Shown piece after piece: positions 25,355-41,231 of a DNA stretch of 64,000 bases. The stretch covers positions 5,084,001-5,148,000 of the forward strand of contig CP124680.1 of the NCBI GenBank assembly GCA_029961745.1, read 5' to 3'. The notes below the pieces were generated by a model that saw only the letters and a program-made list of their open reading frames with translations, was not told where the DNA came from and searched no databases. The DNA is from Nocardioides sp. L-11A. GTDB lineage: Bacteria > Actinomycetota > Actinomycetes > Propionibacteriales > Nocardioidaceae. The translations under genes and the position numbers were made by a program. Within the stretch, counting starts at the first letter, position 1; every line of letters begins with the position of its first letter.

Positions 25355-25444
25355 AGGAATCGCCGGTCGACCGGCGAAACTGTCACTTGGCGGGCGTTGC
25401 AACGCACGACAAGTGAGGGAATCACCGGTCGACCGGCGATTCCT
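25355..25444. repeat. 90-bp near-perfect palindrome between converging eccC and yibE/F genes
   Basis: Everything is symmetric about 25399.5. The outer arms are 23 bp with one mismatch (25355-25377 with 25422-25444, each built on CGGTCGACCG). Middle arms TCACTTG/CAAGTGA are at 25383-25389 and 25410-25416. The centre is the perfect palindrome GCGTTGCAACGC (25394-25405). The right arm codes for the last residues (ESPVDR) and stop of the minus-strand gene. It can serve as a two-way terminator; its size also suits a MITE-like element. Confidence 0.85.
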
Positions 25445-26699
25445 TCAGGGGAGCCCCGGCATCGGCGCGCGGGGCGGCGATCACCGCGGCGATCGCAGTG
25501 GTGACCGGGACGGCGAGGACCAGGCCGATCGAGGTGACCAGGGTGCGGATGACCTCCTCGGCGAGCTGCTCGGTGGAGATCAGGTCGATCAGCGGGCGGT
25601 CGTAGACACGCAGCAGCATCAGCAGGATGAGCGCCGTGCCGACGTACGCGAAGACGATGGTGTAGATCGTCGAGGCGATGTGGTCGCGGCCGATCCGCAT
25701 CGCGCTGGTGAAGACTGCCGTGCGCGAGGCATGGGGGCTGGCGGCGCGCAGCTCCCAGACGGCGGAGGCCTGGGTGATGGTGACGTCGTTGAGTACGCCG
25801 AGCCCGGCGATCACCAGCGCGCAGCCGAGCAGTGCCTGGAAGTCGAGCGCGCCGAAGGAGGCCAGGATCGCCCCGGTCTCGTCGCTGATCCCGGTGAGCC
25901 GGGCGTCGCCGATCGCGACCACGCCGATGCCGGCGGTCAGCGCGATGCCGAGCAGGGTCCCGGCCAGCGCGGTGCTCGTGCGCAGTGAGAAGCCGTGCGT
26001 GGTGTACAGGACGACGAACATGATCGCGGTCGCGCTGGTCAGCGCCACCCCCACGCCGGGCGCGCCGTCCAGCAGCGCCGGCAGCATCCACCACCACACG
26101 ACGGCGCCGCCGAAGGCCAGCCCGACCAGGCCGAGCAGCCCCCGCCAGCGGGCGACCGCGAGCACCACGGCGACGAACAGCACGCCGAGCCAGACCAGGG
26201 TGCCGTAGCGCTCGGTGGCGAAGTAGGAGTACGACGCACCCTGGTCCGGCGCCTCCTCAGGGGCCGGCGTGCGCAGCAGCTCGACCCGGTCGCCCTTCGC
26301 GAGCCCGGACTCGACGACCTCGGGGGGCACGTCGAGACGGACCGGCTCGTCCTCGCCGTCGACCAGGACGGTCACGGTGCTGCATCCGGATCCGTCGGGG
26401 AGGCCGGTCCGGCCCGAGCAGCGCTCGGCCACGGCGACCACCTCGCCGGACGGGAAGGTCACGCCGGGCGCGGCGAACTGGGCCGCGGCACCGCCGTTCT
26501 CCGCGCTGCGGGCGGCGGCGTCTCCGGGCGGCCACCAGATCGCGAGGCCGGCCACCGTGCCGATCAGGGCGAGGGCGAGCGCGGCCAGCAGGACGGTCCG
26601 GGCCGTCGTACCGACCTGGATCTCGTCGTCGGGACCGCGGTGCGCCCGGTGGGAGTGGCCGTGCCCATGTCCGTGTCCGCGGCCCCGGTGGCTGTTCAC
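25422..26699 (-). CDS. YibE/F-family membrane protein with His-rich N-terminus
   Basis: 425 residues. The N-terminal 25 residues are rich in His (GRGHGHGHGHSHRAH), a likely metal-binding tail facing the cytoplasm. One helix (about 35-55) leads to an external domain carrying CSGRTGLPDGSGCSTVTV, with a probable disulphide. Seven or so helices of the YibE/F region follow, including LLGLVGLAFGGAVVWWWMLP and GALDFQALLGCALVIAGLGVLNDVTITQ. YibE/F proteins are membrane proteins of unknown transport role. The GTG at 26699 lies 30 bp from a Zur-like palindrome shared with the divergent COG0523 GTPase, so zinc control is likely. The C-terminal codons come from the 90-bp palindrome. Confidence 0.83.
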   Translation of the reverse strand: MNSHRGRGHGHGHGHSHRAHRGPDDEIQVGTTARTVLLAALALALIGTVAGLAIWWPPGDAAARSAENGGAAAQFAAPGVTFPSGEVVAVAERCSGRTGLPDGSGCSTVTVLVDGEDEPVRLDVPPEVVESGLAKGDRVELLRTPAPEEAPDQGASYSYFATERYGTLVWLGVLFVAVVLAVARWRGLLGLVGLAFGGAVVWWWMLPALLDGAPGVGVALTSATAIMFVVLYTTHGFSLRTSTALAGTLLGIALTAGIGVVAIGDARLTGISDETGAILASFGALDFQALLGCALVIAGLGVLNDVTITQASAVWELRAASPHASRTAVFTSAMRIGRDHIASTIYTIVFAYVGTALILLMLLRVYDRPLIDLISTEQLAEEVIRTLVTSIGLVLAVPVTTAIAAVIAAPRADAGAPLKESPVDR

Positions 26700-26729
26700 G
26701 CGGACACCCTGCCACGACCGGCCGCGATA

Positions 26730-26744
26730 TGAGAATCGTTGTCA
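26730..26744. promoter_or_regulatory. Zur-like operator 1
   Basis: TGAGAATCGTTGTCA, an imperfect 7-1-7 palindrome of the form recognised by actinobacterial Zur. It lies between the divergent starts of the yibE/F-like gene (26699) and the COG0523 GTPase (26759), close enough to block both. Confidence 0.75.
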
Positions 26745-26758
26745 ACTAGGGTGGGACG

Positions 26759-27811
26759 GTGAGTCCGCACGTGCCCGTGACCGCCCTCACCGGGCACCTC
26801 GGCGCCGGCAAGACGACCCTGCTCAACCGGCTGCTACGCCAGCCGGGGGCGCGGATCGGGGTGATCGTCAACGACTTCGGCACGATCAACGTCGACGCCG
26901 GCCTGGTCACGGGGCAGGTGGACGAGCCGGTGTCGATCGCGGGCGGGTGCCTGTGCTGCCTCGAGGACGTCTCGGGCCTGGACGCCGCCCTGGAGCGGCT
27001 CACCCACCCCCGGCTCGCGCTCGACGCGATCGTGGTCGAGGCGAGCGGCCTGGCCGAGCCCGGCGCGCTGGCGCAGATGATCCGGGCCAGCGCCGCACCG
27101 CGGGTCCGGCCCGGCGGCGTGGTCGACGTGGTCGACGCGGCGGAGCACTTCGCCACCCTCGACGACGGCGGCCTGCCGCCGGCACGGTTCTCGGTCGCCA
27201 CGCTGGTGGTGGTCAACAAGGTGGACCTGCTGCCCGAGGCGACGCGCGAGGACACCGTCGCCGCCATCGAGGCCCGGGTCCGCGAGGTCAACCCGGCGGC
27301 GCAGATCGTGCGCACCACGCGCGGCCGGATCGACGCGGCGCTGCTGCACGACGTCGCCCACGCCGAGGACCCGCCGGACCAGCTCCCCCTCGCTTCGCTG
27401 CTGCGCGCCGAGCGGGCCGCGCAGGAGACCGGCCAGGACGCGCCCGACCACGTCCACGCCACCTCGGCGAGCGCGCGCACGGACGGCCCGGTCGACCCCG
27501 CTCGGGTGGTCGACCTCCTCCTCGCCCCGCCCACCGGGGCCTACCGGATCAAGGGGACCGTCGCGGTCGACACCGGCCGGGGCCGCACGGGGTACGTCGT
27601 GCACGTGGTCGGCAGCCAGGTCCACGTCGCCGCGCTCCGGCCGGCGCCCGCGTCGAGCGAGCTGGTCGCCATCGGCGTCGGCCTGGACGCCGCGGCCGCG
27701 CGCGCCCGCCTGGAGGCCGCCCTGGCCCCGAGCGCCGGGCAGCCCGGGACCGAGCGCGACGGTCGTCAGCGGCTGGAGCGGCTCCGGCGGCTCACCAGCT
27801 CGACTTCGTGA
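26759..27811 (+). CDS. COG0523 (CobW/ZNG1-type) metal-chaperone GTPase
   Basis: 350 residues. Walker A GHLGAGKT (12-19), the signature metal site GGCLCC (Cys64, Cys66, Cys67), ASGLAEPG and the guanine-specificity motif NKVD are all present, as is a C-terminal CobW domain. These GTPases deliver zinc or other metals to client proteins during metal shortage. It is divergent from yibE/F across a Zur-like box. Its stop overlaps the 3' end of the opposing S14 gene by 20 bp. Confidence 0.93.
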
Positions 27812-28097
27812 TCCCGGGCAGCTCGCCGCGATGGGCCAGCTCGCGGAACCGGATCCGCGAGAGGCCGGCCTTGCGCAGGTAGCCGCGCGGGCGGCCGTCG
27901 ACCTGGTCGCGGTTGCGCAGCCGGACGGGCGAGGCGTCGCGGGGCAGCCGGGCGAGTGCCCGGACCGCCGCCGCCAGCTCGGCCGTGCCCGGCTCCGCGC
28001 GGCGGACCCGCTCCTTGAGGGCGGCCCGCCGCTCGGCGTACCTCTCGACGGTGGCGCGGCGCCGGTCCTGCGCGGCGACCTTCGCGCGCGAGGCCAT
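27792..28097 (-). CDS. rpsN: 30S ribosomal protein S14, zinc-free paralogue
   Basis: 101 residues, long-form S14: [21 protein letters not shown], then [20 protein letters not shown] and the end LPGITKSSW. It has no cysteines, whereas the short zinc form has two CxxC pairs. Its ATG overlaps the rpmG stop by one base. It is the last gene of the rpmB-rpmG-rpsN operon behind a Zur-like box; zinc-starvation expression is expected from the family. Confidence 0.95.
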
Positions 28098-28276
28098 CAG
28101 CGCTCCTCGCGGAACTCGACGTGGCGGCGCAGGACGGGGTCGTACTTGCGCATCCGCAGGCGGTCGGGGTCGTTGCGGCGGTTCTTGCGGGTGACGTAGG
28201 TGTAGCCGGTCCCGCCGGTCGAGCGGAGCTTGACGATCGGTCGGACGTCGGATCCCTTCCCCTTCGATCCAGCCAT
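28097..28276 (-). CDS. rpmG: 50S ribosomal protein L33, zinc-free paralogue
   Basis: 59 residues, starting [20 protein letters not shown] and ending HVEFREER, with the L33 core [18 protein letters not shown]. It has no cysteine, so the zinc ribbon is lost. It is coupled to both neighbours: one base after the rpmB stop, and overlapping the rpsN start. Confidence 0.95.
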
Positions 28277-28277
28277 G

Positions 28278-28514
28278 TCAGAGCCTCTCTCCTCGGGCGC
28301 GGAGGACGGCCACGACGGCCTCGATCCCCCGCTGGTCGATGGTCTTGATGCCGCGGGCGGAGACCCGCAGCGTGACGTGCCGTCCCAGGGACGGCACCCA
28401 GTAGCGCTTGCGCTGGACGTTGACGTCGAAGCGCCGCCGGGTACGCCGGTGGGAGTGCGACACGTGGTTGCCGAACGCGGGCCGCGCGCCGGTCACCTGG
28501 CACACCTGTGACAT
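28278..28514 (-). CDS. rpmB: 50S ribosomal protein L28, zinc-free paralogue
   Basis: 78 residues, [21 protein letters not shown] onward, with [15 protein letters not shown] and [16 protein letters not shown] single cysteine remains, so no zinc site. The ATG at 28514 has a strong GGAGG. It heads the rpmB-rpmG-rpsN operon, 23 bp from a perfect Zur-type palindrome shared with the divergent L31 operon. Confidence 0.95.
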
Positions 28515-28536
28515 CTCTTGCCTCCTGCTCTATGAT

Positions 28537-28551
28537 TGAGAACGATTCTCA
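28537..28551. promoter_or_regulatory. Zur-like operator 2 (perfect palindrome)
   Basis: TGAGAACGATTCTCA, a perfect palindrome apart from its centre base, between divergent rpmB (28514) and L31 (28574). It is the best example of the motif in the window and links six ribosomal-protein paralogues to zinc control. Confidence 0.88.
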
Positions 28552-28573
28552 TTCTAAACCAGAGGAGCAAGCG

Positions 28574-28840
28574 ATGAAGCAGGGGATCCACCCCGCCTAC
28601 GGTCCCGTCGTCTTCCGCGACCGTGCCACCGGCGACCTGGTGCTCACCCGGTCGACGCTGGCCGAGCACGCCGGAGCGGACGGACGCACGGTCGAGATCG
28701 CGGGGGCGTCGTACCCGGTCGTCGACGTCGACGTGAGCGTGCACAGTCACCCGTTCTGGACCGGTCAGGGCCGGGTGCTCGACTCCGAGGGCCGGGTCGA
28801 GGCGTTCGAGCGCCGGTACGGCCGGGGCGCCGCCCGATGA
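28574..28840 (+). CDS. rpmE2: 50S ribosomal protein L31 type B (zinc-free)
   Basis: 88 residues. It begins [20 protein letters not shown] and carries the type B signature HSHPFWTGQ. It lacks the CxxC of zinc-binding L31. AGAGGAG precedes the ATG. The stop overlaps the next start as ATGA. First gene of an L31-COG0523-like-L32-L36 operon. Confidence 0.96.
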
Positions 28841-29901
28841 GGGTGCCCGTCGTGCTGCTCGGCGGCGTCGACCCGGAGGCGATGGCCGCGACCATGGTGG
28901 GCCTGCAGTTCGACCTGCCGGGCGCCGTGGCGTGCCGACACAGCATCGACGTCGAGCGCGGCGTGCTGACCCGCACCGTCAGCGACCTGAGCGGTGTCGT
29001 CGAGACGCACGAGACGCTGCTCGAGCACGCCTGCGTCAGCTGCGCGATCCGCGAGGACATCGTGCCGACGCTCGAGCGGCTCGCGCGCGACGGCCGCTGG
29101 CAGAGCATCGTGGCGCACCTGCCGGTCGGTGCCGAGGCCGCCCACCTGTGCGCCGCGCTCACCTGGGACACCCGGCTGGCGCGGTTCCTGCGGGTCTCCG
29201 CCGTCGTCACCGCCGTGGGTGCGCGGCACCCCGTGCGCGACCTGCTCGGCGACGACCTGCTCGCCGAACGCGGCCACCACTGCGCCCCCGACGACCGTCG
29301 CGGCGTCGGGGAGGTGCTGTCCGCCATGGTCGAGTACGCCGACGTGGTGGCCTTCGACGACGCCGTCGACCCGGTCGCGCGCGGTCTCGTCGCGACTCTC
29401 GCGCGTCCGGACGCGACGGTCGTGGAGGGCGGACACGGGCTCGGGGGCGACGTCCTCGTCGGACGACTCCACCAGCACGCGCGCACGGACGCATGGACCG
29501 ACCCGGCGCGCACGGACGTCCTGCCCGACGTCCGCGGGGAGGGGGTCTGGCGCGTCGACCTGCAGTCGCTGCGCCCGTTCCAGCCGGATCGGCTCCTGGA
29601 CTCGCTCGAGCAGCTCGGCGGCGGCTCGCACCGATCGCGCGGCTGCTTCTGGCTGCCCAGCCGCCCCGGCCGGGTCCTGGAGTGGGACGGCGCCGGCGGT
29701 CAGCTGAGCATCGGCGACCACGGCTCGTGGGGCACCCGCGGCCCGTTCACGCGGATCGTCCTGACGGGGGTCGGCGTCGCGCCGACCCACCTGCGCTCGG
29801 CCTTCGACGGGCTGCTGCTCACGAGCGGGGAGCCGGTGACCTGGCCGGCGGGCGAGGACGGCTTCGAACCCTGGCTCGGGCCGATCCGGGAGGTGGCCTG
29901 A
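28837..29901 (+). CDS. COG0523-like protein with degenerate GTPase motifs
   Basis: 354 residues, colinear with CobW/COG0523 proteins but altered. The Walker A position reads [16 protein letters not shown] with no GxxxxGKT, and the NKxD position reads FDDAVD. The metal motif is kept in another form as [11 protein letters not shown] (Cys66, Cys69), and a CobW-like C-terminal domain ([20 protein letters not shown]) is intact. It probably binds metal without hydrolysing GTP. It sits inside the ribosomal-protein operon, coupled by ATGA to L31 and directly abutting L32. Similar proteins occur in Streptomyces zinc regulons as far as I know. Confidence 0.82.
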
Positions 29902-30090
29902 ATGGCCGTGCCGAAGCGACGTACGTCGCGCAGCCGGACCCGGCACCGTCGCTCGCAGTGGCGGGCGAGCACCCCGGACCTGGTGACCGTCACGATCGAC
30001 GGCCGCACCCACCGCGTCCCGCGGCGCCTGGTCGGCGCGGTCATGGACGGCCTGGTCGACCCCGAGACGGGAAGGAGGAGCAGGCGATGA
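29902..30090 (+). CDS. rpmF: 50S ribosomal protein L32, zinc-free paralogue
   Basis: 62 residues, [20 protein letters not shown], the L32 start. The four cysteines of zinc-binding L32 are missing. Its ATG immediately follows the previous stop, and its stop overlaps the L36 start (ATGA). Confidence 0.94.
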
Positions 30091-30209
30091 AGGTGCGCAA
30101 CTCGATCCGGTCGCTCAAGAAGCAGCCCGGCGCCCAGGTCGTGCGGCGGCGTGGCCGCGTCTATGTGATCAACAAGCAGAACCCGCGGATGAAGGCCCGC
30201 CAGGGCTGA
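30087..30209 (+). CDS. rpmJ: 50S ribosomal protein L36, zinc-free paralogue
   Basis: 40 residues, [20 protein letters not shown] then [19 protein letters not shown]. The CxxC and CxxxxH zinc ligands of canonical L36 are absent. It ends the operon started by L31 type B. Confidence 0.95.
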
Positions 30210-30308
30210 TCACGCGGCACACCCGACGGGTCCGTCCGGTCCTCGGGTACGACAGGTCGGCACCCGAGACCGATGTCCGGCACCGTCGACCGACCTAGCG
30301 TCGGGAGC

Positions 30309-30776
30309 ATGATCCGTCGTCCCGTCGCCGCCGTCCTGCTGGCCTGCTACTCCGTCGTCATCGGGCGGCTCACCCTGGCCGACCCGGCGGCGGGCCGCTG
30401 GGCCTTCGACCTGGCCGACGCGGCGGCGCGGCGGGCCAGCCACGGCCGGCTCGACTGGAGCGAGACCGAGGTCATCGCGAACGTCGCGCTCTTCGTGCCG
30501 GCAGGCTTCCTGCTCGCCGTCCTGCTCGGCCGGCCGCTGCTCGCGGCGGCTCTGACGGTGCTCGCGTCGGCGTGCATCGAGCTGGCGCAGCAGCAGTTCC
30601 TCCCGACCCGGGTGCCGACGCTCGCCGACGTGGTGCACAACGGCCTCGGCGGGCTGGTCGGCGCGGTCCTCGCCGCGCCATTCAGCCGGGTCAGCCGGGT
30701 CAGCCGGGTCAGCCGCCGGACGACCGGGCGGAGCGGCCCCCAGGGCGCCCCCGGTCAGCGCGCGGGGCAGTACTGA
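30309..30776 (+). CDS. VanZ-like family membrane protein
   Basis: 155 residues with four hydrophobic segments: VAAVLLACYSVVIGRLTLA, VIANVALFVPAGFLLAVLL, LLAAALTVLASACIELAQQ and DVVHNGLGGLVGAVLA. The pattern (FVPxGFLL, then IELxQ and DVxxNxxG) is that of VanZ-like proteins. Function is not known outside glycopeptide resistance, and nothing here implies resistance. A 9-bp repeat (CCGGGTCAG) adds three RVS units near the C-terminus. Its 3' end overlaps the convergent gene by 22 bp. I chose the ATG at 30309 to begin at the first helix. Confidence 0.75.
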   Translation: MIRRPVAAVLLACYSVVIGRLTLADPAAGRWAFDLADAAARRASHGRLDWSETEVIANVALFVPAGFLLAVLLGRPLLAAALTVLASACIELAQQQFLPTRVPTLADVVHNGLGGLVGAVLAAPFSRVSRVSRVSRRTTGRSGPQGAPGQRAGQY

Positions 30777-31246
30777 GCGAGCCAGCCGCCGAACGCACCG
30801 ACCGAGCCCGAGGTCGAGGTCGAGCCGCCCGGGCCGTCGTCGGCCAGTGCCCCGGGCACGGCGCTCCGGTCGAGTTCCTCGCCGAGGGAGCTGTAGACAC
30901 CGGAGATCTCGACGTAGTAGCCGGTGCGCACGAGTCGACTCATCGAGTCGGGTACGCCGAGGGCGACGAGGTCGCCGGCAGCCGCCCGCAGGGCATCCGC
31001 CGCGGTGACGGGCTGCGCGGCGTACCGCCCCTGGGCGTCGGCCAGCGTGAGATAGCCGGCACAGAACTCGTCCTCGCCCGGCACCACACCGCCGGAGGAG
31101 GAGGCCTCCTCCGCCGCCGGTGGAGCGTCGCCACTGCCACCATCACCGCCACCACCACCGCGGCCGACGGACAGGGTCACGACCAGCACGACGACCAGGG
31201 CCAGGGCGAGGCCGAGGCGCGGCAACAGCGGGGAAGCGTCACTCAT
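30755..31246 (-). CDS. Membrane-anchored extracytoplasmic protein, unknown
   Basis: 163 residues. One N-terminal helix (about 10-27, LGLALALVVVLVVTLSVG), then a Gly/Ser/Pro-rich linker and a helical domain with FCAGYLTLADAQGRYAAQPV and WLAQYCPAR, whose two cysteines may pair. It overlaps the start of its own transcription unit's upstream gene by 8 bp, so it belongs to the YraQ permease operon, but I do not recognise the family. Confidence 0.7.
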   Translation of the reverse strand: MSDASPLLPRLGLALALVVVLVVTLSVGRGGGGGDGGSGDAPPAAEEASSSGGVVPGEDEFCAGYLTLADAQGRYAAQPVTAADALRAAAGDLVALGVPDSMSRLVRTGYYVEISGVYSSLGEELDRSAVPGALADDGPGGSTSTSGSVGAFGGWLAQYCPAR

Positions 31247-31919
31247 AGGGGCGCCGGGGCGGGCCCGTCAGGGTGACCTCGGCAGCGGACAGGACCGGTG
31301 CGTCCTGTGTCCCGATGCCCTCGCCGGTGCCCGGCACCCAGGTGCCGACCACCTCGACCCACTGCTCGTCGGCGGGTGCCTGCTCGCCGTCGCCCGGGTC
31401 GACGCGGACGCGGAAGGCCAGCGCGTCCGCGGCACAGCAGCTGATGGAGAGCCGGGTGACGTACCAACCGCCCTCGTCATGGGTCACGAATCCGCGCAAC
31501 CGGACCTGAGCGCCGGTCAGCACCTCGGCGTACGCCGAGGCGTAGGCGACGAACTCCGAGACCAGCATGTCGTGGACCTGTCCCTCGCGCAGCGGCGCGA
31601 CCGCGGCCTCGTCGTACCGCACGGCGCTCACGTCGTTGGACCGCCGCTCGGCGACGTAGGCGCCGAGCGCGGGGGGCTGGACGACGAAGGCGATGACGAC
31701 CGGGAGCAGCAGGGCCCACACCGCAGGGGACGACCGGTCGGCGTCGTGTCGGCTGCTGAAGACCGCGAGGAAGGCGAGGCCGACCATGGCGGCCCCGCTG
31801 ACGACGAGCGGCCATCTCATCCAGTCGTTGACATAGCGGGCGTACTCGTCGGTGAGGCCGACCCGCAGTGCGACCGCGCCGATCGCGGCGAGGACCACGG
31901 ACTGGGCGTTCCGGTTCAC
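31239..31919 (-). CDS. TIGR03943-type membrane protein (permease partner)
   Basis: 226 residues. Two or three N-terminal helices (ALRVGLTDEYARYVNDWMRWPLV region, AAMVGLAFLAVF, WALLLPVVIAFVVQPP) are followed by an external OB-like domain containing VRLRGFVTHDEGGWYVTRLSISCCAADA. The family pairs with YraQ/DUF318 permeases and is thought to take part in metal handling. Its GTG at 31919 overlaps the permease stop (GTGA). Confidence 0.85.
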   Translation of the reverse strand: MNRNAQSVVLAAIGAVALRVGLTDEYARYVNDWMRWPLVVSGAAMVGLAFLAVFSSRHDADRSSPAVWALLLPVVIAFVVQPPALGAYVAERRSNDVSAVRYDEAAVAPLREGQVHDMLVSEFVAYASAYAEVLTGAQVRLRGFVTHDEGGWYVTRLSISCCAADALAFRVRVDPGDGEQAPADEQWVEVVGTWVPGTGEGIGTQDAPVLSAAEVTLTGPPRRPYE

Positions 31920-32911
31920 AGCAGCACCCACCCGACCAGGACAGCCACGACGGTGGCGACCGTGAGCACCAGCGGCACGAACTGGACCGCGAACCCACGC
32001 CCGAACTGGCCGGCCTCCATCGCGGCGAGCTTGATGTCCATGGCCGGCCCGACGACGAGGAACACCAGCTTGGCGGTGTCGGAGAACGCCGTGAGGCTCA
32101 CCGCCACGAAGGCGTCGGCCTCCGAGCAGAGCGCGGCCAGGAAGGCGAAGGCGGCGAGCACGACGACGCCGACCAGCAGGTTGCCGGCGACGGACTCGAC
32201 GACACTGACCGGCACCAGCACGTTGACGGTGGCAGCGATGACCGCGCCGATGACCAGGAAGCCGCCCGCGGGCAGCAGGTCGTGCCAGGCCGCCCCGACG
32301 AAGCGGCCCCACCGGGTGTCGCCGCCATGGGTGTGGTGGGCCGCGCTGATCCGGGGCAACCGCAGCGCCGGCAGCCGTCCGGCGACGACGACATAGATCC
32401 AGCCGATGACGACCGCGACGAGCAGTGAGGCGACGAACCGGGCGACCACCATGTCGGTGCGGCCCTGGAAGGCGACCGCTGTGGAGATGATCACCGCCGG
32501 GTTGATCGCCGGGGCGGCGAGCAGGAAGGTCAGCGCGATCGGCGCCGGTACGCCGCGCCGGGCCAGGCCCGAGGCGACGGGGACCGCGGCGCACTCGCAG
32601 GTCGGCAGCCCGATCCCGGCCAGGCCCGCGACCGGGACGGCGAGAGCGGGGCTGCGAGGCAGCACCCGCGACACCAGTCGCTCCGACAGCAGCGCCGAGA
32701 TCAACCCCGACAGGGCGACGCCCAGGACGAGGAACGGGATGGACTGCACGACGATGGCGAGGAAGACGGTGGCCCAGGTCTGGAACGCCGCGCCGTCGAG
32801 ACGGTCGCCGAAGAGGCGCTGGACGGGCACGGCGGCGGCCAGGAGGCCCAGCACGAGCCAGACCTGCAGGTCGCCCCGGGATCGGGGCGCGGGCGTGGGG
32901 GCCGTGCTCAT
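31916..32911 (-). CDS. YraQ/DUF318-family permease
   Basis: 331 residues, about eight to ten membrane helices in two related halves. Conserved cysteine/acid motifs occur within helices: GLPTCECAAVPVASGLARRG and AALCSEADAFVAVS. A His-containing loop (AAHHTHGGDTRWG) joins the halves. Members are linked to metal or metalloid transport. It is preceded by a weaker Zur-like site, so zinc control is likely. First gene of a three-gene operon. Confidence 0.88.
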   Translation of the reverse strand: MSTAPTPAPRSRGDLQVWLVLGLLAAAVPVQRLFGDRLDGAAFQTWATVFLAIVVQSIPFLVLGVALSGLISALLSERLVSRVLPRSPALAVPVAGLAGIGLPTCECAAVPVASGLARRGVPAPIALTFLLAAPAINPAVIISTAVAFQGRTDMVVARFVASLLVAVVIGWIYVVVAGRLPALRLPRISAAHHTHGGDTRWGRFVGAAWHDLLPAGGFLVIGAVIAATVNVLVPVSVVESVAGNLLVGVVVLAAFAFLAALCSEADAFVAVSLTAFSDTAKLVFLVVGPAMDIKLAAMEAGQFGRGFAVQFVPLVLTVATVVAVLVGWVLL

Positions 32912-32942
32912 CGGGCCCCTCGCCGGGACGTTGGATCGCTAA

Positions 32943-32957
32943 CGGGAATCATTATCG
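32943..32957. promoter_or_regulatory. Weak Zur-like operator upstream of the YraQ permease operon
   Basis: CGGGAATCATTATCG on the plus strand. Against TGANAANNNTTNTCA its reverse complement keeps 7 of the 10 fixed positions. It lies 32 bp before the permease ATG. Confidence 0.5.
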
Positions 32958-33051
32958 AGAACGGTAGACCACCTGTCCCCCGCGGTCCGGCGAACGCGCC
33001 GACGTGGACGAGCCGTGTCCCCCGGCAGCGCCCGCGGCCGCACCTCGCTGG

Positions 33052-33972
33052 TCACCGCGACCCACCGCTGAGCGGGACGGGGGCGCCCTCGTCCGAGGAC
33101 GGCTCGCCCGCCCGCGCCGCGCCGGCCCGCGCCATCCCGGCGAGGACGCCGTGGCGCGGTGCCGCGAGCCAGGCGACCAGGAAGGCGCCGGCCAGCACCA
33201 GGACGATGGTGGCGCCGACCGGCAGGTCCCAGGACCAGGAGAGGTAGAGGCCCACGGTCGCCCCGACCACCCCGATGCCCGGGGCGAGCACCATCATCAC
33301 GCCGAGCCGGTCGGTCAACAGCCGGGCGGTCGCGGCCGGCGCGACGAGCAGCGCCAGCACCAGGACGTTGCCGATCGTCTGCACGGACATCACCACGGCC
33401 AGGGTGACCAGGACGTAGAGGACCAGGTCGTGCAGGAAGACCCGCAGACCCAGGGCGCGCGCCATCTCCCGATCGAGCGTGACCGCGACCAGTCCGTGGT
33501 GGAGCAGGAACAGCGTCGTGAGGACCACCAGGCCGGTCACCGCGATCACCGCGAGGTCGCGGTCCGGCACGCCCGCGATCGAGCCGAAGAGGAACTGCTG
33601 CAGGGACCCGGCGTACCCGGGCGCGCGCGAGATGATCACGACACCCAGCGCGAAGGCGGCGACGAAGAAGATCCCGATCACCGAGTCCTCTTTGAGGCGC
33701 CGGCCCTGGCTGAACACCGCGATGAGGACGGCGGTGAGGACGCCGGCGACGGTGCCGCCGACGATGAGGTTGCCGGACAGCACGAAGGCGACGGCCAGGC
33801 CGGGGAAGACCGCGTGGGCGACCGCGTCGCCGATGAACGCCATGCCGCGCAGGACGACATAGCAGCCGACGACGCCGCACACGACCGACGACATCATCGC
33901 GACCGCGAGCGCCTTCGGCAGGAAGCGCAGGTCCGGGTTGGTGAGGTCGGCGAGGAAATCCAGCGGGCTCAC
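33052..33972 (-). CDS. Zinc/manganese-type ABC transporter permease (anchored-repeat system)
   Basis: 306 residues, about eight helices. The family motif FIGDAVAHAVFPGLAVAFVL and the ABC-3 segment LVLALLVAPAATARLL identify a ZnuB/MntB-like permease. The GTG at 33972 overlaps the ATPase stop (GTGA). It is the last gene of a six-gene operon that also encodes three surface proteins, the arrangement known as the anchored repeat-type ABC transporter. Confidence 0.92.
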   Translation of the reverse strand: MSPLDFLADLTNPDLRFLPKALAVAMMSSVVCGVVGCYVVLRGMAFIGDAVAHAVFPGLAVAFVLSGNLIVGGTVAGVLTAVLIAVFSQGRRLKEDSVIGIFFVAAFALGVVIISRAPGYAGSLQQFLFGSIAGVPDRDLAVIAVTGLVVLTTLFLLHHGLVAVTLDREMARALGLRVFLHDLVLYVLVTLAVVMSVQTIGNVLVLALLVAPAATARLLTDRLGVMMVLAPGIGVVGATVGLYLSWSWDLPVGATIVLVLAGAFLVAWLAAPRHGVLAGMARAGAARAGEPSSDEGAPVPLSGGSR

Positions 33973-34739
33973 ACCGTCACCCCCGCCGCCAGCACCCGCA
34001 GGAACGGGCTGTCGGCGCTCACCTCGAAGGTGTCCGACCACGCCTCGGGACGGTCCCGGAGCTCGGCGGCGCTCCCCGTGGCGACCACGGTGCGGTTGAG
34101 GAGCACGACCCGGCGGCAGGCGAAGAGCGCGGACGCGATGTCGTGGGTCGTCATCAGCACCGCGCGCGCCGGTCCGTCCACCCCGTCCGCGAGCCCGGTG
34201 AGCATCGCGAGCAGCGACTCCTGGGTGGGCAGGTCCAGGCCCGTGAACGGCTCGTCGAGGAGCAGCACCGATGGATCGAGGGCGAGCGCCCGGGCGACCA
34301 GCACCCGCTGGCGCTGGCCGCCGGAGAGCTCCCCCACCGGCCGTCGGCGCAGGTCCGTCATGGCGACCAGGCCCAGCGCCCGGTCCACCGCCCGCCAGTC
34401 CGCGACCCGCGGGCCGCGCCCCGGGCGCAGTCCACCGACCCTTCCGGTGAGCACCACCTGCTCGACCGAGATCGGGAAGTCCCAGGCGAACTCGTGGCGC
34501 TGAGGCACGTAGCCGATCTCGCCGCGCCGCCGTCGTACCGGACGGCCGTCGACGCGCACCTCCCCCGCCCGCGACCGGGTCAGGCCCAGGATCGCGCGCA
34601 GGAGCGTGGTCTTGCCCGCTCCGTTGGGACCGATCAGTCCGACGAGCTCGCCGCGGTGGAGATCGAGGTCCACGCCGCGCAGGACCGGCCGGCCGCCCAG
34701 GTCGACCTCCAGGCCGCGCACCTGCAGTCCGCTGCTCAT
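33969..34739 (-). CDS. Zinc/manganese-type ABC transporter ATP-binding protein (anchored-repeat system)
   Basis: 256 residues. Walker A GPNGAGKTT, Q-loop in YVPQRHEFAWDFP, signature LSGGQRQR, Walker B VLLLDEPF and switch His in TTHD are all intact. It couples ATP hydrolysis to import by the adjoining permease. The start overlaps the preceding stop as ATGA. Confidence 0.95.
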   Translation of the reverse strand: MSSGLQVRGLEVDLGGRPVLRGVDLDLHRGELVGLIGPNGAGKTTLLRAILGLTRSRAGEVRVDGRPVRRRRGEIGYVPQRHEFAWDFPISVEQVVLTGRVGGLRPGRGPRVADWRAVDRALGLVAMTDLRRRPVGELSGGQRQRVLVARALALDPSVLLLDEPFTGLDLPTQESLLAMLTGLADGVDGPARAVLMTTHDIASALFACRRVVLLNRTVVATGSAAELRDRPEAWSDTFEVSADSPFLRVLAAGVTV

Positions 34740-35710
34740 GACGCGACCTCGTCCAGCAGCGACCGGGAGCGGGTACGACGCCGGCGCGCCACCGTTGCCA
34801 GCAGCACGGCGACGAGGACGACGGCACCGCCGCCGACGACCCACGGCCAGATCGCCGTACCGTCCCCGTCGACCGGGTCGGCCGCGCCGGCGGTGGGCTC
34901 CGGAGCGTCCGGATCAGGTGCGCTCACTGCGGCCCGCAGTGCCTCCTCGGGATCGGTGCCGTCGCCGACCGCCAACCGCAGCGTGCCGGTGGTGGTCTGC
35001 TCGGTGCCGTCCACGAGGGTGGCACTGGCCGCGATCGACACCCGGTAGGTGCCGGGCACGCTGAACACCCAGTTGGCGTGGGTGTGGGTGTTGACGTCGA
35101 CCCACAGGTCCTGATCGGCGCTGGCGAGCGCACGGGAGTCCCAGAGCACGTCGGGCGCGCCGAAGCCGCCGTCCTGCAGGTAGACGACCAGGTGGCCGGG
35201 CCCGTCCACGCCCCGCAGGGTGAGGGTGACGCCGCGGTCGACGCTGTCGAGCACCGAGGGGTCCTGGGTGTTCCAGCCGAGCCAGACCACGTCCGGGTCC
35301 TGGGTCTGCGGCACCACGTGCACGCCGGCGCCGGGTGGCACGCCGAGGAAGGCGTAGGCAGGGTCGTCGGGCACCTGTTGGGTGGCGGCGTCGCGGACCC
35401 GGATCACGGCGTGCTCGAGCGGGCGCCACACTGAGCCCGCCAACCGGGTGTCGTCGTGGACCATCAGCGTCCACGACCCGTCGACCTCGCGGGGGCCGAG
35501 GTCGACGTGGCCGGCCTCGAGCACGACGTCGTCGGTGGCGACCTCCTGGTCAGGGTCGATGGTCTGCTGCAGCGAGCCGTCGTCCGGCGGCACCGTCGGG
35601 GCGGGGTCCCCGGGGGCGGCCGCGGCGGCCGGGACGAGCAGCAGCGACAGCGCGGCGGCCAGCACCACGGCCCGGCAGCGGTTGAGGGCGGGCCCCTTCA
35701 GGACAGGCAC
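34736..35710 (-). CDS. Surface-anchored repeat protein (choice-of-anchor M type)
   Basis: 324 residues. Signal peptide (about 1-32, AVVLAAALSLLLVPAAAAAPG). One full actinobacterial surface-anchor repeat runs from EAGHVDLGPREVDG through YAFLGVP, VVWLGWNTQ, VDGPGHLVVYLQ and HTHANWVFSVPGTYRVSI to about residue 250. A C-terminal membrane helix (WVVGGGAVVLVAVLLATV) followed by RRRRTRSRS anchors it. His and Asp residues in the repeat (GHVD, HTHAN) could bind metal. The GTG at 35710 follows GAGGAG and overlaps the substrate-binding gene by 13 bp. Confidence 0.85.
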   Translation of the reverse strand: MPVLKGPALNRCRAVVLAAALSLLLVPAAAAAPGDPAPTVPPDDGSLQQTIDPDQEVATDDVVLEAGHVDLGPREVDGSWTLMVHDDTRLAGSVWRPLEHAVIRVRDAATQQVPDDPAYAFLGVPPGAGVHVVPQTQDPDVVWLGWNTQDPSVLDSVDRGVTLTLRGVDGPGHLVVYLQDGGFGAPDVLWDSRALASADQDLWVDVNTHTHANWVFSVPGTYRVSIAASATLVDGTEQTTTGTLRLAVGDGTDPEEALRAAVSAPDPDAPEPTAGAADPVDGDGTAIWPWVVGGGAVVLVAVLLATVARRRRTRSRSLLDEVAS

Positions 35711-37251
35711 GTGCGGATCTCCTCTGCGTTGAAGCGCATCATCTGGATGTAGTCGGTCACCCGGTCGTCGAAGGCGTCGCCGTAGATCGCACAGACCGCG
35801 ACGTCCTCCTCCTCGGCGACCTGCGTGAGCACGGACGAACGAGCGCGCAGCGCCGGCTCGAGGAAGACCGCCGGGACCTCGAGCGTCCGGATGGTCTCGA
35901 CGAGCTTGCGGCGGTCGGCGAGCGACGGCTCGGTGGCCGGGTTCGGCGTGACGAAGCCGGCCACCTGCAGCCCATAGGCGTGCGCGAGATAGCCGAAGGC
36001 GTCATGGGTGGTCACCAGGTAGCGACGGCGCTGCGGCACCTGCGCGATCGTGTCGCGGACATAGCGGTCGAGCGCCTCCAGCTGCGCGAGGTAGGCGTCC
36101 GCCCGCTCGCGGTAGGCGAGCGCGTTCTCGGGATCGGCGTCGATCAGGGTGTCGCGGATCAGCTCGGCGTAGGCCATCACGTTGCCGACGTCCTGCCACA
36201 GGTGTGGGTCGATCTCGCCGTGGACGTGCTTGCCGAGCACGGCCTGCGGCAGCTGGTAGACCGGCGTGCCGGGCCGGCCGAGGAAGCCGAGGCGCTCGTC
36301 GCCCGGCACCTCGACCAGCGCCTTCGCGGGCACCTCGACGACCACCCCGGCCGGGTCGAGCTCCTCCTGGCTGTGCTCGCCGCCGCCCTCGGCGTCGTAG
36401 CGGAGATCCATGTCGGCACCGTCGCCGCCGTCGAGGTCGACCGTGACGTCGGCGTGTCCGCGGTCCAGGACCCGACCCGCCCCGGCCTCTTCCGGCGGGA
36501 CCCCGACGGCGAAGGTCACCGTCGTGGTGCCGATCGGCAGCGGCTTCGCACCGCTCTCCACCTGCAGCCGAGCGGTGAAGTCCACCGTGTAGACGCCCGG
36601 CTCGGAGAAGGACCAGGACATGTGGGTGTGCGCGTCGGCGGGGAGCACGGCGGTGTCGTCGCGGTAGCCATCGGCCGCGTCGAAGCCGTCGCCGGAATCG
36701 AAGTACACCTCCGGATCACCGAAGGACCCCGTCAGGTAGCCGACGACCCGGCCGGGCCCGGTCATGCCGGTCGCGGAGAGGAGTACGTCGGAGGCGCGCG
36801 TGGCGCCGTACCGCTCGCCGCGGCCGTGGACCCGCAGCCCCAGCCAGACGGTGTCGAGGTTGACCTTCTCGACGAGCGGGATGATCTCGGCGGCGTACTT
36901 CACCGCGTCCTCGGCCAGGGACACGTTGATCGCGTCGTCGGGCAGGTTGGCGTCGAGCACCTTGATCACGTCGTGCTCCTCCAGCAGCAGGTAGTTGCTG
37001 AAGGCCACGTCGGCGTAGACCACGTCGCGCGCGCGGCGCAGGCTGGGCTCGTGGCTGTGCGGGTCCGCGCCGTCCGGGACCAGCGACACGACGTTCACGT
37101 CCTCGCCCCCGACGTTGCGGACCAGGTCGGCGATCAGTCCGGTCGTGGTGATCACCTGGAGCCGGTCGTCGTTCGCGGAGAGGGTGGGTGGCGCGGCGCA
37201 GGCGGTCAGGAGGACCACCAGCGCCGCGCCGCCCGCGCCCCGCCTACGCAT
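35698..37251 (-). CDS. ABC substrate-binding lipoprotein with inserted, permuted anchor-repeat domain
   Basis: 517 residues. The lipobox LLTAC (Cys about 18) follows a short signal from the ATG at 37251. The ZnuA-like fold is split. Residues 30-130 hold ITTTGLIADLVRNVGG and DGADPHSHEP; residues 345-517 hold HGEIDPHLWQDVGN, TTHDAFGYLAHAYGL and YGDAFDD. Between them lies an anchor-repeat module whose halves are in reverse order: the C-half (VWLGLRVHG, TGPGRVVGYLTG, HTHMSWSFSEPGVYTV) precedes the N-half (DRGHADVTVDL, LGFLGRPG). The histidines expected to bind zinc in ZnuA are present. It overlaps both neighbours. Confidence 0.88.
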   Translation of the reverse strand: MRRRGAGGAALVVLLTACAAPPTLSANDDRLQVITTTGLIADLVRNVGGEDVNVVSLVPDGADPHSHEPSLRRARDVVYADVAFSNYLLLEEHDVIKVLDANLPDDAINVSLAEDAVKYAAEIIPLVEKVNLDTVWLGLRVHGRGERYGATRASDVLLSATGMTGPGRVVGYLTGSFGDPEVYFDSGDGFDAADGYRDDTAVLPADAHTHMSWSFSEPGVYTVDFTARLQVESGAKPLPIGTTTVTFAVGVPPEEAGAGRVLDRGHADVTVDLDGGDGADMDLRYDAEGGGEHSQEELDPAGVVVEVPAKALVEVPGDERLGFLGRPGTPVYQLPQAVLGKHVHGEIDPHLWQDVGNVMAYAELIRDTLIDADPENALAYRERADAYLAQLEALDRYVRDTIAQVPQRRRYLVTTHDAFGYLAHAYGLQVAGFVTPNPATEPSLADRRKLVETIRTLEVPAVFLEPALRARSSVLTQVAEEEDVAVCAIYGDAFDDRVTDYIQMMRFNAEEIRTCLS

Positions 37252-39547
37252 GGGCGAGGCGGCGGATCGACCGACGGCGTACGCCGAGCACGGCCGCGCC
37301 GGACACCACGAGCGTGACGCCCAGGGGCAGCAGCACGGTGAGACTGTCGTCGGCGCCGGTGGCGGGGATGCAGTCACGGATCGCCGCCCGGGGCAGGGTC
37401 GCGGGCAGGGTCAGGTGCGCGGTCAGCCCGACACTTCGGCCCCCACCGCCGGAGCCACCGCCGGAGCCACCGCCGGAGCCACCGCCGACCACGAAGGTGA
37501 GCGTCGCACTGTCGGCGACCGCCGTGCCGTCGTTCAGCGTGGCCGACTGGGTGATGGCGACCTCGTAGGTGCCGGCCGCGGTGAACACCCAGTTGCCGTG
37601 GGCGTGCACGTTGAGCGGCACGTCGAAGGACCGCGGGAAGCCGCTCACGTCGCCGAACATGCGCTGCCCGACCCCGCCGAACGAGTCGGTGAGGTAGACC
37701 GCCAGCCGGCCCGGTCCGCTGACGCCGTCGAGCCGGTAGCGCACCGGTCCGCGGACCTGCTGCCGGACCGTCTCGTGCTGGGTGTTCCAGCCCAGCCACG
37801 GCACGCCGCTGACCTGGGTCTGCGAGATCAGCCAGATCGGGTCGCCGGGCGCGCCGAGGAAGGAGTACGCCGCGCCGGCGGGCACCTCCTGCCGCGCGGG
37901 CCCACCGATCACGAACGACAGGCTCTCCGGCTCGACCCAGCTCGGCGGCTGGCTGCGGTCGTCCTTCACCCGCGCCCGCATCGCTCCGCCCTCGATCATC
38001 GAGCCGAAGTCGAAGTGACCGTCGCTCACCGTGGTCCGCGTGGTCGGCGTGGCCTGCGGCGCCGCCGGGTCCGTCGCGCCGGCATCGTTCGACGGGGCCG
38101 GAGCCTCCGCGCCGCGGGTCACCGGAACGCACTCCGGGGTGGCCCGCGCCGGAGCGAGCGACGGCGCGGCGGGCGTACCGGCCCCCGGCCCGCCCGGGGC
38201 GCTCTTGTTCTTCTCGCCCTTCTCACCCGGCTTTCCCTCGCCCCCCTTGGCACCGCTCGTGGCGGCGTCGGACGCCGGGCCGGGCGCCGCCTGCGCGCAG
38301 GGACCGACCCGGAACGTCAGCGTGGCGGTGCTCGACACGTCCGCGCCCGACGTGAGCCGCGCGAGGTGGGTGGTGGTGACCCGGTAGACACCGGGCCGTG
38401 TGAACGACCAGTTGCCATGGGCATGGACGTTGGCCGGGATGAGCGTGCTGCGCGGCCAGCCGTCGGCGATGCCCAGCACCGGCGTGATCGAGCCGAACGC
38501 CCCCGTCTGGTAGACGAACAGCTGCCCGGGACCCTCGACCGTGTCGAGCCGCCAGGTCGTGGCGCCCTGGATGTTGCCGGTGGCGCTCTCGTGCTGGGTG
38601 TTCCACCCGAGCCATGGCACGCCTGCCTCCTGGATCTGCCCGATCGTCCAGATGTCGCTGCCCGCCGTACCGAGGAAGGCGAGAGCGGGGTTGGCCGGCA
38701 CCTGCTTGCGGGCCGGCTCGCCGACCTCGACCAGCACCGTCGCCGGGTCGCGCCAGGTCGGAGTTCCGGTGCGGTCGTCCTTGACCCGCGAGTCGAGCCC
38801 ACCGTCCACCACCTGCACGCCGTAGTCCAGGTGGCCGTCGCTCACCCGGACCGCGTCGGCGGGCAGGCCCGGGACGGCGCACACGTCCTCCTGCGCGACC
38901 AGGGACGGCGCGGGTGCGGGCTCGGGCGGGAGGTCGGCGGCAGGAGGCGGCGCGACGGGCTCCTGCTCGGCGGGCTCCTGCTCGGCGGGCGCGGGCGCGA
39001 CGGGCGCCGGGTCGTCCGGCTCCGGCTCGACCGGCGCGGGCCCGACCGGCGCTTCGACAGGCGCGGGTACGTCGAGCAGGTAGTGCGTCGTCATGCCCGC
39101 GACGGTCGCCGCCACGGCGTACCGGCCGGGTGCGGCGAAGGACCACAGCGGCCACCCCTCGCTGCCCGGTGGCACCGCCAGCCGGCCGTGGGGGTCGACG
39201 CCCTGGACCAGGACCGGCCCGGGGCCGGTGATCGCCAGGTCGATCGCGAGCACCGCACCGGGCGCCGGCTCCGGCGCCCGGTGCGTGCTCCACCCCAGCG
39301 GCACCCCGTCGCCGAGGGCCTCCTCCCCGAGCTCGAGGACGACCTCGGCGGGGGCGTGCTCCCGTCCGTCCTGGACCAGCGCCAGCACCGGCGTACCGTC
39401 CGGCGCGGTCGCGACGTCGAACGCGGTCACGGGTCCGTCGGCGGTACGAAGCACGGCGACCGGATCGGCCTCCGCCGGGGCGGCGGTGAGCCCGCCCACG
39501 AGGAGCAGGAGCAGGAGGCAGGGCAGGGTGCGCAGGGTTGCCTTCAT
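37244..39547 (-). CDS. Large surface protein with two anchor repeats and LPXTG-like tail
   Basis: 767 residues. Signal peptide (LPCLLLLLLVGGLTAAPAEA). An N-terminal degenerate repeat-like region, then a Pro/Glu-rich spacer (EQEPAEQEPVAPPP). Repeat 1 spans about 236-416 (SDGHLDYG to PWLGWNTQHES to HAHGNWSFTRPGVYRV) and repeat 2 about 509-690 (SDGHFDFG to PWLGWNTQHET to HAHGNWVFTAAGTYEV). A GGGSGGGSGGGSGGG linker precedes IPATGADD, a membrane helix and RRRSIRR, which together resemble a sortase signal (IPATG for LPXTG). Likely wall-attached zinc-capture protein. It follows the upstream gene by 2 bp and overlaps the lipoprotein gene by 8 bp. Confidence 0.85.
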   Translation of the reverse strand: MKATLRTLPCLLLLLLVGGLTAAPAEADPVAVLRTADGPVTAFDVATAPDGTPVLALVQDGREHAPAEVVLELGEEALGDGVPLGWSTHRAPEPAPGAVLAIDLAITGPGPVLVQGVDPHGRLAVPPGSEGWPLWSFAAPGRYAVAATVAGMTTHYLLDVPAPVEAPVGPAPVEPEPDDPAPVAPAPAEQEPAEQEPVAPPPAADLPPEPAPAPSLVAQEDVCAVPGLPADAVRVSDGHLDYGVQVVDGGLDSRVKDDRTGTPTWRDPATVLVEVGEPARKQVPANPALAFLGTAGSDIWTIGQIQEAGVPWLGWNTQHESATGNIQGATTWRLDTVEGPGQLFVYQTGAFGSITPVLGIADGWPRSTLIPANVHAHGNWSFTRPGVYRVTTTHLARLTSGADVSSTATLTFRVGPCAQAAPGPASDAATSGAKGGEGKPGEKGEKNKSAPGGPGAGTPAAPSLAPARATPECVPVTRGAEAPAPSNDAGATDPAAPQATPTTRTTVSDGHFDFGSMIEGGAMRARVKDDRSQPPSWVEPESLSFVIGGPARQEVPAGAAYSFLGAPGDPIWLISQTQVSGVPWLGWNTQHETVRQQVRGPVRYRLDGVSGPGRLAVYLTDSFGGVGQRMFGDVSGFPRSFDVPLNVHAHGNWVFTAAGTYEVAITQSATLNDGTAVADSATLTFVVGGGSGGGSGGGSGGGGRSVGLTAHLTLPATLPRAAIRDCIPATGADDSLTVLLPLGVTLVVSGAAVLGVRRRSIRRLAHA

Positions 39548-39549
39548 GG

Positions 39550-41163
39550 TCAGCGACGGACCTTCACGACCTGCGCGCCGATCGACTTCTCCGTGGTCGC
39601 GTCGCCCCGGTAAACGACCTTGATCCTGTGCTTGCCCGCCTTGAGGCGGGGCAGCCGGAGGACGACCGTGCCGTCGGCGCGCACGGAGCCGGCCGCGAGC
39701 TTCTTCCCACCGGAGCGGACCACGACCTTGCCCGAGACCGGGGTGCCCGGAGCCGACGGGACCGTCACCGCGACCTTGACCTTGCCACGCTTGCCGGGCG
39801 TGATCCGCTTCGGCTTCACCTTGACGCCGACCTGGCTGACCGCCTTGCCCGCCGCGGGCGGCGGGACGGGTGCCGCGCCGGAGGCGAGGCTCACGACGAC
39901 CGGTGCCGACTCGGCGATGACCGCGTGGTCGTGGTCGAAGATCCGCGCGACGACCTCGGCCCCCTGCAGGTCGGCGGTGACGGGCAGGTCCGCCGTGGCC
40001 TGGTTGGAGTCGGGGATGTAGGCGTAGAACTCCTCGCCGGGCTTGCGGACGTACCAGTGGAAGTGGTCCTCGCCGGTCGCCGGGCTCTGGGTCGAGGTGA
40101 AGCGCGCGGTCTCCCCCACGGCGTACGACGCCTTGTCGGCGTGCGCGGTGAGCGTGGTGACCTGCGGGAGCTGCGCGACGTGCAGGGTGAGCGGGGCGGA
40201 GGACGCCACGACGTTGTGCGCGTGGTCGTACAGGTTGGCGTAGACCTGCGCGCCGTCCCAGACCAGCGAGGTCGGCAGCTTGAGCTCGGCGGTGCTGGAC
40301 GCGTTGCTGATGGCGTAGTCCGGGCCGCCGGCACGCTTGATGAACCAGTGGTAGTGGTCGAGGTCGGTCGGCGCGGTCGGCGCCGCCGTGAGCGTGATGC
40401 CCTGGCCGTAGAGGTAGTCGGCGCCCGGCTTGTTGGGCGTGACCTCGAGACCGAGGTCCGCGGGCGCCGGGTCGCCGACGCGGACGTGGTAGCTGGCCGG
40501 CGTACCGCCGATCGTGCCACCGCCCTGCAGCTGTGCGCTCGGCGTGACCTCGAGCGTGTAGTCGCCCAGCTCGGTGAAGACCCATTCCGTGTGCACGTGG
40601 GCGTTCGCGCTGACGGGGATCACGTCGGGACCGCCGTCGCTGCTGTCGACGTAGTGGTTGATGACCTCCCCGGTGGGACTGTTCATGAACGAGTGGACCT
40701 CGCCGGGCCCCTCCACCTCGACCGCCAGCTGCACCGGCATCCCCGGGGCGAGCGTGGTGCCGGCGGGCAGCGTGCCGGCGAGCCGCTCGGTGCTCCAGCC
40801 CGGCCAGGGCAGCTGCGGGTCCTGGGTCTGCGGCAGGTCGTAGACGACGTCCCCGGGCTCGCCGAGGAAGGCGAAGGACGCGGGCAGACCCTCGGGGATG
40901 GTCAGCGCCGCGAGCTCCTCGTCGACCGCGATGGTCACCTCGGCCGGGTCACGGTAGGTCGAGCCCGGGTCGTGCAGCTGGGTGTCGTCCTTGATCTGGA
41001 CCTTCAGACCGGCGGCGGTCTGGTCGTAGGTGACCTCGAACAGGTCGATGTGACCGCGGTCGAGGACCACCGGCCGGTCGGCGGCGGCCGCGGGTGCGGC
41101 CAGACCGACGGCGACCGCTCCACCGGCCAGTGCCAGCGCGGTCAGTGAGCTGATGCTTCTCAT
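39550..41163 (-). CDS. Secreted anchor-repeat protein with His-rich domains
   Basis: 537 residues, first gene of the operon. Signal peptide about 1-27. One divergent anchor repeat (LDRGHIDLFEVTYDQ, FAFLGEPGD, PWPGWSTE, HVHTEWVFTELGDYTL). Two related modules follow, each holding paired histidines: DHYHWFIKR with DHAHN, and EDHFHWYVRK with DHDHAV. The last 110 residues are an Ig-like, Lys-rich domain ending in VVKVRR with no membrane anchor. The many DH and HxH pairs suggest zinc binding outside the cell. A good Zur-like box lies 54 bp upstream. Confidence 0.8.
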   Translation of the reverse strand: MRSISSLTALALAGGAVAVGLAAPAAAADRPVVLDRGHIDLFEVTYDQTAAGLKVQIKDDTQLHDPGSTYRDPAEVTIAVDEELAALTIPEGLPASFAFLGEPGDVVYDLPQTQDPQLPWPGWSTERLAGTLPAGTTLAPGMPVQLAVEVEGPGEVHSFMNSPTGEVINHYVDSSDGGPDVIPVSANAHVHTEWVFTELGDYTLEVTPSAQLQGGGTIGGTPASYHVRVGDPAPADLGLEVTPNKPGADYLYGQGITLTAAPTAPTDLDHYHWFIKRAGGPDYAISNASSTAELKLPTSLVWDGAQVYANLYDHAHNVVASSAPLTLHVAQLPQVTTLTAHADKASYAVGETARFTSTQSPATGEDHFHWYVRKPGEEFYAYIPDSNQATADLPVTADLQGAEVVARIFDHDHAVIAESAPVVVSLASGAAPVPPPAAGKAVSQVGVKVKPKRITPGKRGKVKVAVTVPSAPGTPVSGKVVVRSGGKKLAAGSVRADGTVVLRLPRLKAGKHRIKVVYRGDATTEKSIGAQVVKVRR

Positions 41164-41216
41164 GGGTTCCGTCCCTCTCCACCGACGGCGGCTCCGTCGG
41201 GAGTCGGGACTCTACA

Positions 41217-41231
41217 TGAGAACGATTATCA
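41217..41231. promoter_or_regulatory. Zur-like operator 3
   Basis: TGAGAACGATTATCA, one base from the perfect palindrome at 28537. It lies between the divergent anchored-repeat transporter operon (start 41163) and the HU-like gene (start 41281), about 50 bp from each. Confidence 0.85.

Follow-up and report, generated by a model that had tools for sequence, protein, structure and literature searches.

Does a block of about 16 kb in the genome of the soil bacterium Nocardioides sp. L-11A, with genes for zinc uptake and for cysteine-poor ribosomal proteins, form one island under the zinc repressor Zur, and do its small HU protein and its YibE/F membrane protein belong to the same regulon? The block lies in the window analysed here, a stretch of 64,000 nucleotides (C1:5084001-5148000, C1 being the only contig of the 5.68-Mb genome; coordinates without this prefix are window positions). 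We put at roughly 0.78 the probability that the block makes up the main part of this Nocardioides species' Zur regulon, operating by the mechanism proposed below. For the predicted core, a zinc-starvation island under Zur, support is good: its motif is rare, its genes are of the right types, the genome encodes a true Zur, and relatives conserve the island. HU and YibE/F are candidate members with good comparative support. Motif, gene content and linkage across genomes were observed directly, the last in samples of genomes from the genus, the family and the order. Regions from these relatives were annotated with the proteins of the window and a few others, so that partners of other kinds would go unseen.

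The original prediction rested on three near-identical 15-bp sites at 26730, 28537 and 41217, which are exactly as it described them and all match the box pattern TGANAAYSRTTNTCA perfectly. The genome was scanned with this pattern at given mismatch limits, and the reversed pattern served as the control. With up to one mismatch allowed, the whole genome holds four palindromes, all of them perfect: box 1 (26730..26744) between the YibE/F and COG0523 genes, box 2 (28537..28551) between the L28 and L31B genes, box 3 (41217..41231) between the surface-protein operon and the HU gene, and a fourth at C1:2325341 that overlaps the first start codon of a separate second znuA. The motif is therefore not equally dense at unrelated promoters, since the sole perfect box outside the island sits at znuA. 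At the same limit the reversed pattern had no match in the whole genome and about 0.015 matches are expected genome-wide under a first-order Markov model of the window, and on both counts a chance origin of the three boxes was rejected; three of four random sites would fall within 14.5 kb with P ~7.7e-5. At up to two mismatches, 37 places genome-wide compare with 8 for the reversed control, so two-mismatch places are mostly noise, and a looser scan confined to the window gave no significant excess, its 6 matches against 3.76 expected being the three boxes read on each strand. A fourth, weaker site that had been proposed at 32943 (32943..32957) was dropped: it has three mismatches, the window holds six such matches (one of them overlapping the box at 41217), so that it is no better than background, and G133, a member of the same genus and the sole full relative aligned, lacks this stretch. 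G133 otherwise shares the island and its three boxes, of which box 1 is kept, box 2 is kept with one base changed inside the consensus and box 3 is unchanged. More widely, at least one perfect box was found in 28 of 29 genus genomes (1-5 in each, with a reversed match in none) and in 97 of the 120 genomes of the family sample.

The genome encodes three Fur-family proteins, and the one at C1:942244 is clearly Zur. Its best PDB match is 3mwm, the Zur of S. coelicolor (E 4.8e-49), it also matches 2o03, the Zur of M. tuberculosis, and a two-mismatch box stands 29 bp before its start codon. Here zur is distant from the island; in G129 (L339 2002-12202) it shares an island with YibE/F, HU, YraQ-DUF1980 and ribosomal genes.

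The gene types named in the original prediction were borne out by profile scans. Next to box 1, a COG0523 (CobW-type) GTPase (26759..27811, + strand; PF02492, E 2.3e-37) carries a P-loop and a CLCC motif. On either side of box 2 lie genes for alternative ribosomal proteins, recognized by profile scans and by sequence: S14 (27792..28097), L33 (28100..28276) and L28 (28278..28514) on the minus strand, and L31 type B (28574..28840; NF002462 over cut-off), L32 (29902..30090) and L36 type B (30087..30209; NF002021 over cut-off) on the plus strand. All six are cysteine-poor, as had been claimed, with no cysteine in S14, L33, L31, L32 and L36, one in L28, and CxxC in none. A second CobW-type protein that the original prediction had overlooked (28837..29901, + strand) has CVSC in place of CxCC and no P-loop. 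Its score against NF047431, the model for the hibernation-factor recruiter MRF, is 131.2 bits against a cut-off of 375, so we call it only MRF-like.

Behind box 3, all on the minus strand, lies an operon for a zinc ATP-binding cassette (ABC) importer and surface proteins. It opens with a ZnuG-like surface protein (39550..41163; NF038134 over cut-off), followed by a ZnuF-like protein with an IPATG-type tail (37244..39580, start not fixed; TIGR03773 over cut-off in two domains), a ZnuA-type substrate-binding protein with an inserted domain (35698..37377; TIGR03772, E 3.7e-218), a ZnuE-like surface protein (34736..35710; NF038134 over cut-off) and the ATPase (33969..34736; TIGR03771) and permease (33052..33915; TIGR03770) of the anchored-repeat type, the starts of both not fixed. 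TIGR03770, TIGR03771 and TIGR03772 all exceed their cut-offs, with 406.9, 321.3 and 725 bits. Four exported proteins carry HxD and HxH motifs, the substrate-binding protein among them; the pair is found in the ZnuE-, ZnuF- (twice) and ZnuG-like proteins and in reverse order in the ZnuA type.

Four further genes of the block had been put forward as new members. The YibE/F membrane protein (25422..26699, - strand; PF07907, E 1e-67) has a histidine-rich N-terminus, which recurs in most of 50 aligned relatives and so is by itself no mark of Zur control. The protein is 94 and 96% identical to proteins assigned to Nocardioides sp. YibE/F occurs in 97 of 116 genus genomes and in 81 of the 120 of the family sample. 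Nineteen orthologues with identities of 64% or more were compared (18 from the genus search and one from the family sample, the fragment G216 being excluded), and 16 of them are linked to Zur elements in three arrangements: nine stand directly beside a box, opposite a COG0523 gene in five cases and an MRF-like gene in four, and seven lie behind L33 or S14 in a box-led gene run on one strand. The three without a link are G121, G139 and G196, the last with only a three-mismatch site. A box at YibE/F, or YibE/F in a Zur operon, is found in more than one arrangement, which we took as the mark of regulon membership; beyond the close orthologues such linkage is seldom seen. Tail to tail with YibE/F lies a gene for an EccC-like (FtsK-type) ATPase (21020-25345), a position kept in 18 of the 19 close relatives; the genome scan found no perfect Zur box at it.

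The small HU (41281..41574, + strand; PF00216, E 3e-25) has box 3 49 bp upstream. The genus search found it in 73 of 116 genomes, a count that retains the HU of G139, which groups with housekeeping HU in the tree. Within 200 bp upstream of these 73 genes a box is present in four cases if perfect, in 12 at up to one mismatch and in 14 at up to two; the reversed control gave 0/73. Searching 293 genomes of the order with a profile gave a second set of 37 HU homologues, of which five had a box at up to one mismatch and nine at up to two (reversed control 0/37); most of the proteins behind this profile were box-linked HUs, which favours HUs of that kind. Of the 29 HU matches outside the genus, 23 were examined (not G361, G367, G307, G023, G347 and G372), and six genus matches of the order search were left unexamined for boxes (G082, G338, G344, G356, G376 and G383). 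Two of the five boxed genes of the second set lie outside the genus, in two other families of Propionibacteriales (G241 in f4 and G354 in f2). The two sets together give 17 boxed genes among 110 HU homologues, counting boxes within 200 bp and with no more than one mismatch (reversed control 0/110), and the distance from box to gene among the boxed homologues is 18-97 bp. A scan of named genomes with HU yielded five distant relatives that fall outside this group.

The strongest alternative, to which we allow a minor share of belief, accepts the island and makes HU and YibE/F bystanders, each box serving only the ZnuG-like or the COG0523 gene opposite. Here both genes do lie across a box from a classic target, HU from the surface operon (box 3) and YibE/F from the COG0523 gene, and many boxed HU homologues likewise face L31-MRF across their box. 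Other arrangements speak against this. The box leads a run of HU-YraQ-DUF1980 in three genomes (G143, G167 and G310); besides the seven YibE/F genes mentioned above, HU too stands within box-led ribosomal operons, following L28-L33-S14 in G196 and MRF-L32-L36 in G004, of another genus, where the box is ~1.7 kb upstream; and at the YibE/F locus of G105 there are two boxes, one near each gene. A TAGGGT that follows box 3 toward HU here is intact, whereas it is broken in G133, which has no HU (n=1, by eye), a pattern that would fit a promoter serving HU. For HU as for YibE/F, then, a box or a Zur operon is found in more than one arrangement, which supports both as candidate members of the regulon.

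Several observations weigh against counting HU and YibE/F as members. At up to one mismatch, 93 of the 110 HU homologues have no box, and in the family sample only four of 30 YibE/F loci have one (the present one, G006, G102 and G105). Among 41 regions with more distant YibE/F of the genus, 32 show no zinc neighbour among the queried genes; seven of the other nine are recO-YibE/F-uppS beside zur-znu, which is proximity only, and the last two are G209, opposite znuA across two boxes, and G129, beside YraQ-DUF1980 in the island that holds zur. G133 holds the island and no HU gene. The box label of HU does not represent many independent gains: on the HU tree, which has few columns and many open forks, it changes twice (bootstrap 2-4) against 13.1 changes when shuffled, so the box marks certain HU lineages and few independent gains are needed. 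Finally, a steady neighbourhood can mislead, as the next gene demonstrates. The gene for a steroid-dehydrogenase-like flavoprotein (41594..43150, + strand; PF00890) keeps its place beside MRF or some other gene of the island across many relatives, and because it was such a steady neighbour it looked like a new member. It was rejected: 29 of 30 relatives have a KstR-like motif where this gene starts (27 TAGAAC, 2 TGGAAC; an uncontrolled count), and only 2/30 have a perfect Zur box within 120 bp. Neighbourhood alone being insufficient, the assessment of HU and YibE/F used counts of box distances and operon positions.

Between the ribosomal genes and the zinc ABC operon lies a pair of minus-strand genes for a YraQ/ArsP_1 permease (31916..32911; PF03773, E 5.6e-49) and its DUF1980/TIGR03943 partner (31239..31919; TIGR03943 over cut-off; PF21537). 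YraQ was found in 26 of 116 genus genomes, and 23 of 28 orthologous YraQ-DUF1980 loci have a zinc partner within ~1.5 kb, that is, a Zur box at up to two mismatches, zur, alternative ribosomal genes, HU, YibE/F or zinc ABC genes. One of these 23 (L295) is linked solely by a two-mismatch box, the five loci without a partner are L297, L304, L307, L311 and L313, and L315 (35% identity) was excluded. These membrane proteins raise a second alternative, which we think unlikely, namely that YraQ-DUF1980 and YibE/F export metal instead of aiding its uptake, and protect the cell from overshooting once zinc is back or from other metals that enter through the importer. The best NCBIfam match of YraQ is indeed a copper/zinc efflux model, NF033936, yet with 72.5 bits against a cut-off of 300, and both YraQ-DUF1980 and YibE/F stand behind the usual repressor-type boxes together with genes for uptake and for sparing zinc.

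The remaining two candidates fared less well than HU and YibE/F. The unnamed protein at 30755 (30755..31246, - strand), which overlaps the end of the DUF1980 gene and matched no family in the profile scans, is a moderate candidate for the island: seven genomes have a homologue beside YraQ-DUF1980, five of them (G206, G176, G105, G143 and G215) on the strand of the pair and two (G126 and G189) on the opposite one, and its gene is absent from G133. The VanZ-like membrane protein (30273..30776, + strand; PF04892) was dropped as a firm member and is at best a weak candidate, being found in a single arrangement, behind L36, in four genomes in all (here, G133, G194 and G196). The Zur-island interpretation thus holds for its core, while the site at 32943 falls away and VanZ stays weak.

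That the palindromes belong to another Fur-family regulator, or to chance, is very improbable: the genome has two further Fur-family genes and related regulators of this family can share similar boxes, but all four perfect boxes lie at zinc-type genes, one of the three proteins is clearly Zur, and the expected number of boxes is as low as stated above.

We infer the following mechanism for the Zur island, as regards repression, the response to zinc and what YibE/F and HU do. When zinc is replete, zinc-loaded Zur would occupy the three boxes and silence the six surrounding promoters. In zinc starvation Zur would leave the boxes and the island genes would be made. A surface relay of HxD/HxH proteins would then feed the ABC importer, the COG0523 protein would act as a metallochaperone-type GTPase, and zinc-free ribosomal proteins together with the MRF-like protein would spare zinc. 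The YraQ-DUF1980 pair would be made as well, probably by read-through from the ABC operon, and so would YibE/F and the small HU; YibE/F would most likely handle zinc at the membrane, and HU would most likely repack the nucleoid or tune transcription in starvation.

Zinc starvation is known for a swap of ribosomal proteins and for switched-on uptake. If HU is under the same repressor, zinc status would reach the chromosome too. We would give an even chance to the wider proposal that a Zur-controlled HU variant remodels the chromosome in zinc starvation, in one programme with zinc-free ribosomes and the MRF-like factor and in several families of Propionibacteriales, and that YibE/F is a new Zur-controlled zinc-handling membrane protein.

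The relatives' genomes also held boxes at other genes and in other layouts. Paired boxes 21-22 bp apart are present in many relatives, for example at znuA in L091 and L113, unlike the boxes of the present genome, which at up to one mismatch are all single. In G120, G130 and G134 (L092 6997-7770, L096 and L099) a perfect box lies 10-24 bp from the start of a type I methionine aminopeptidase gene (identified by TIGR00500 over cut-off on L092 and by near-identical starts in the other two), possibly a further zinc-regulated gene. In L111 (7296-9523), and also in L110, L114 and L116, the gene for AztD, a zinc metallochaperone, stands opposite an NAD(+) diphosphatase gene across two Zur boxes; AztD was identified on L111, by NF038015 over cut-off. 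In G122 (L106 6953-7944) a perfect box precedes a phage major capsid gene (TIGR01554) by 30 bp, which is either chance or a prophage using the box.

How the island compares with known systems is judged here from titles, abstracts and excerpts of the literature. At the level of title and abstract, the searched literature contained nothing linking HU, YibE/F or YraQ to Zur, and the searched records on Zur and nucleoid-associated or histone-like proteins held no description of a layer from zinc status to the chromosome. YibE/F is classed as family 9.B.141 (PMC3924187); in the literature examined, it and YraQ-DUF1980 are membrane families without an assigned job, and their recurrent Zur linkage supplies a testable one. 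With the Zur regulon of S. coelicolor (PMC6103462) the island has in common znuABC, a yciC-type GTPase and alternative L31, L32, L28, L33 and S14; in this review YibE and VanZ have 0 occurrences. In C. glutamicum, a COG0523 gene and an oxidoreductase gene (cg0794-cg0795) are under Zur, with Zur binding shown (PMC2823685). There, as is predicted here, a Zur-controlled COG0523 gene diverges from another gene, the partner being the oxidoreductase in C. glutamicum and YibE/F in Nocardioides.

The surface operon resembles znuAECB-znuFG of C. diphtheriae, which is repressed by zinc and Zur and whose proteins bind zinc via HxD/HxH (PMC12445094, PMC6711530). Both systems comprise a substrate-binding protein, ZnuE-, ZnuF- and ZnuG-like HxD/HxH proteins, an ATPase and a permease; here the order is different, in a single gene run with the ZnuG-like gene first behind one box and YraQ-DUF1980 at its end. 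So many Zur gene types in one block had seemed striking to the original prediction, and the clustering is real, yet it has a precedent in MSMEG_6045-6071 of M. smegmatis, where Zur genes lie in "exceptional genomic clustering" (PMC7174638); in the text of that paper the words "histone" and "hup" are absent. The clustered island itself is of a known kind, and HU and YibE/F are its proposed new elements. Both species have, in a single region, znuABC, two CobW proteins (one of them MRF, here MRF-like), alternative S14, L33, L28 and L31, and additional transporters. The M. smegmatis cluster differs by S18 and the porin MspD, the Nocardioides island by L32, L36, YibE/F, YraQ-DUF1980, HU and the anchored-repeat surface operon.

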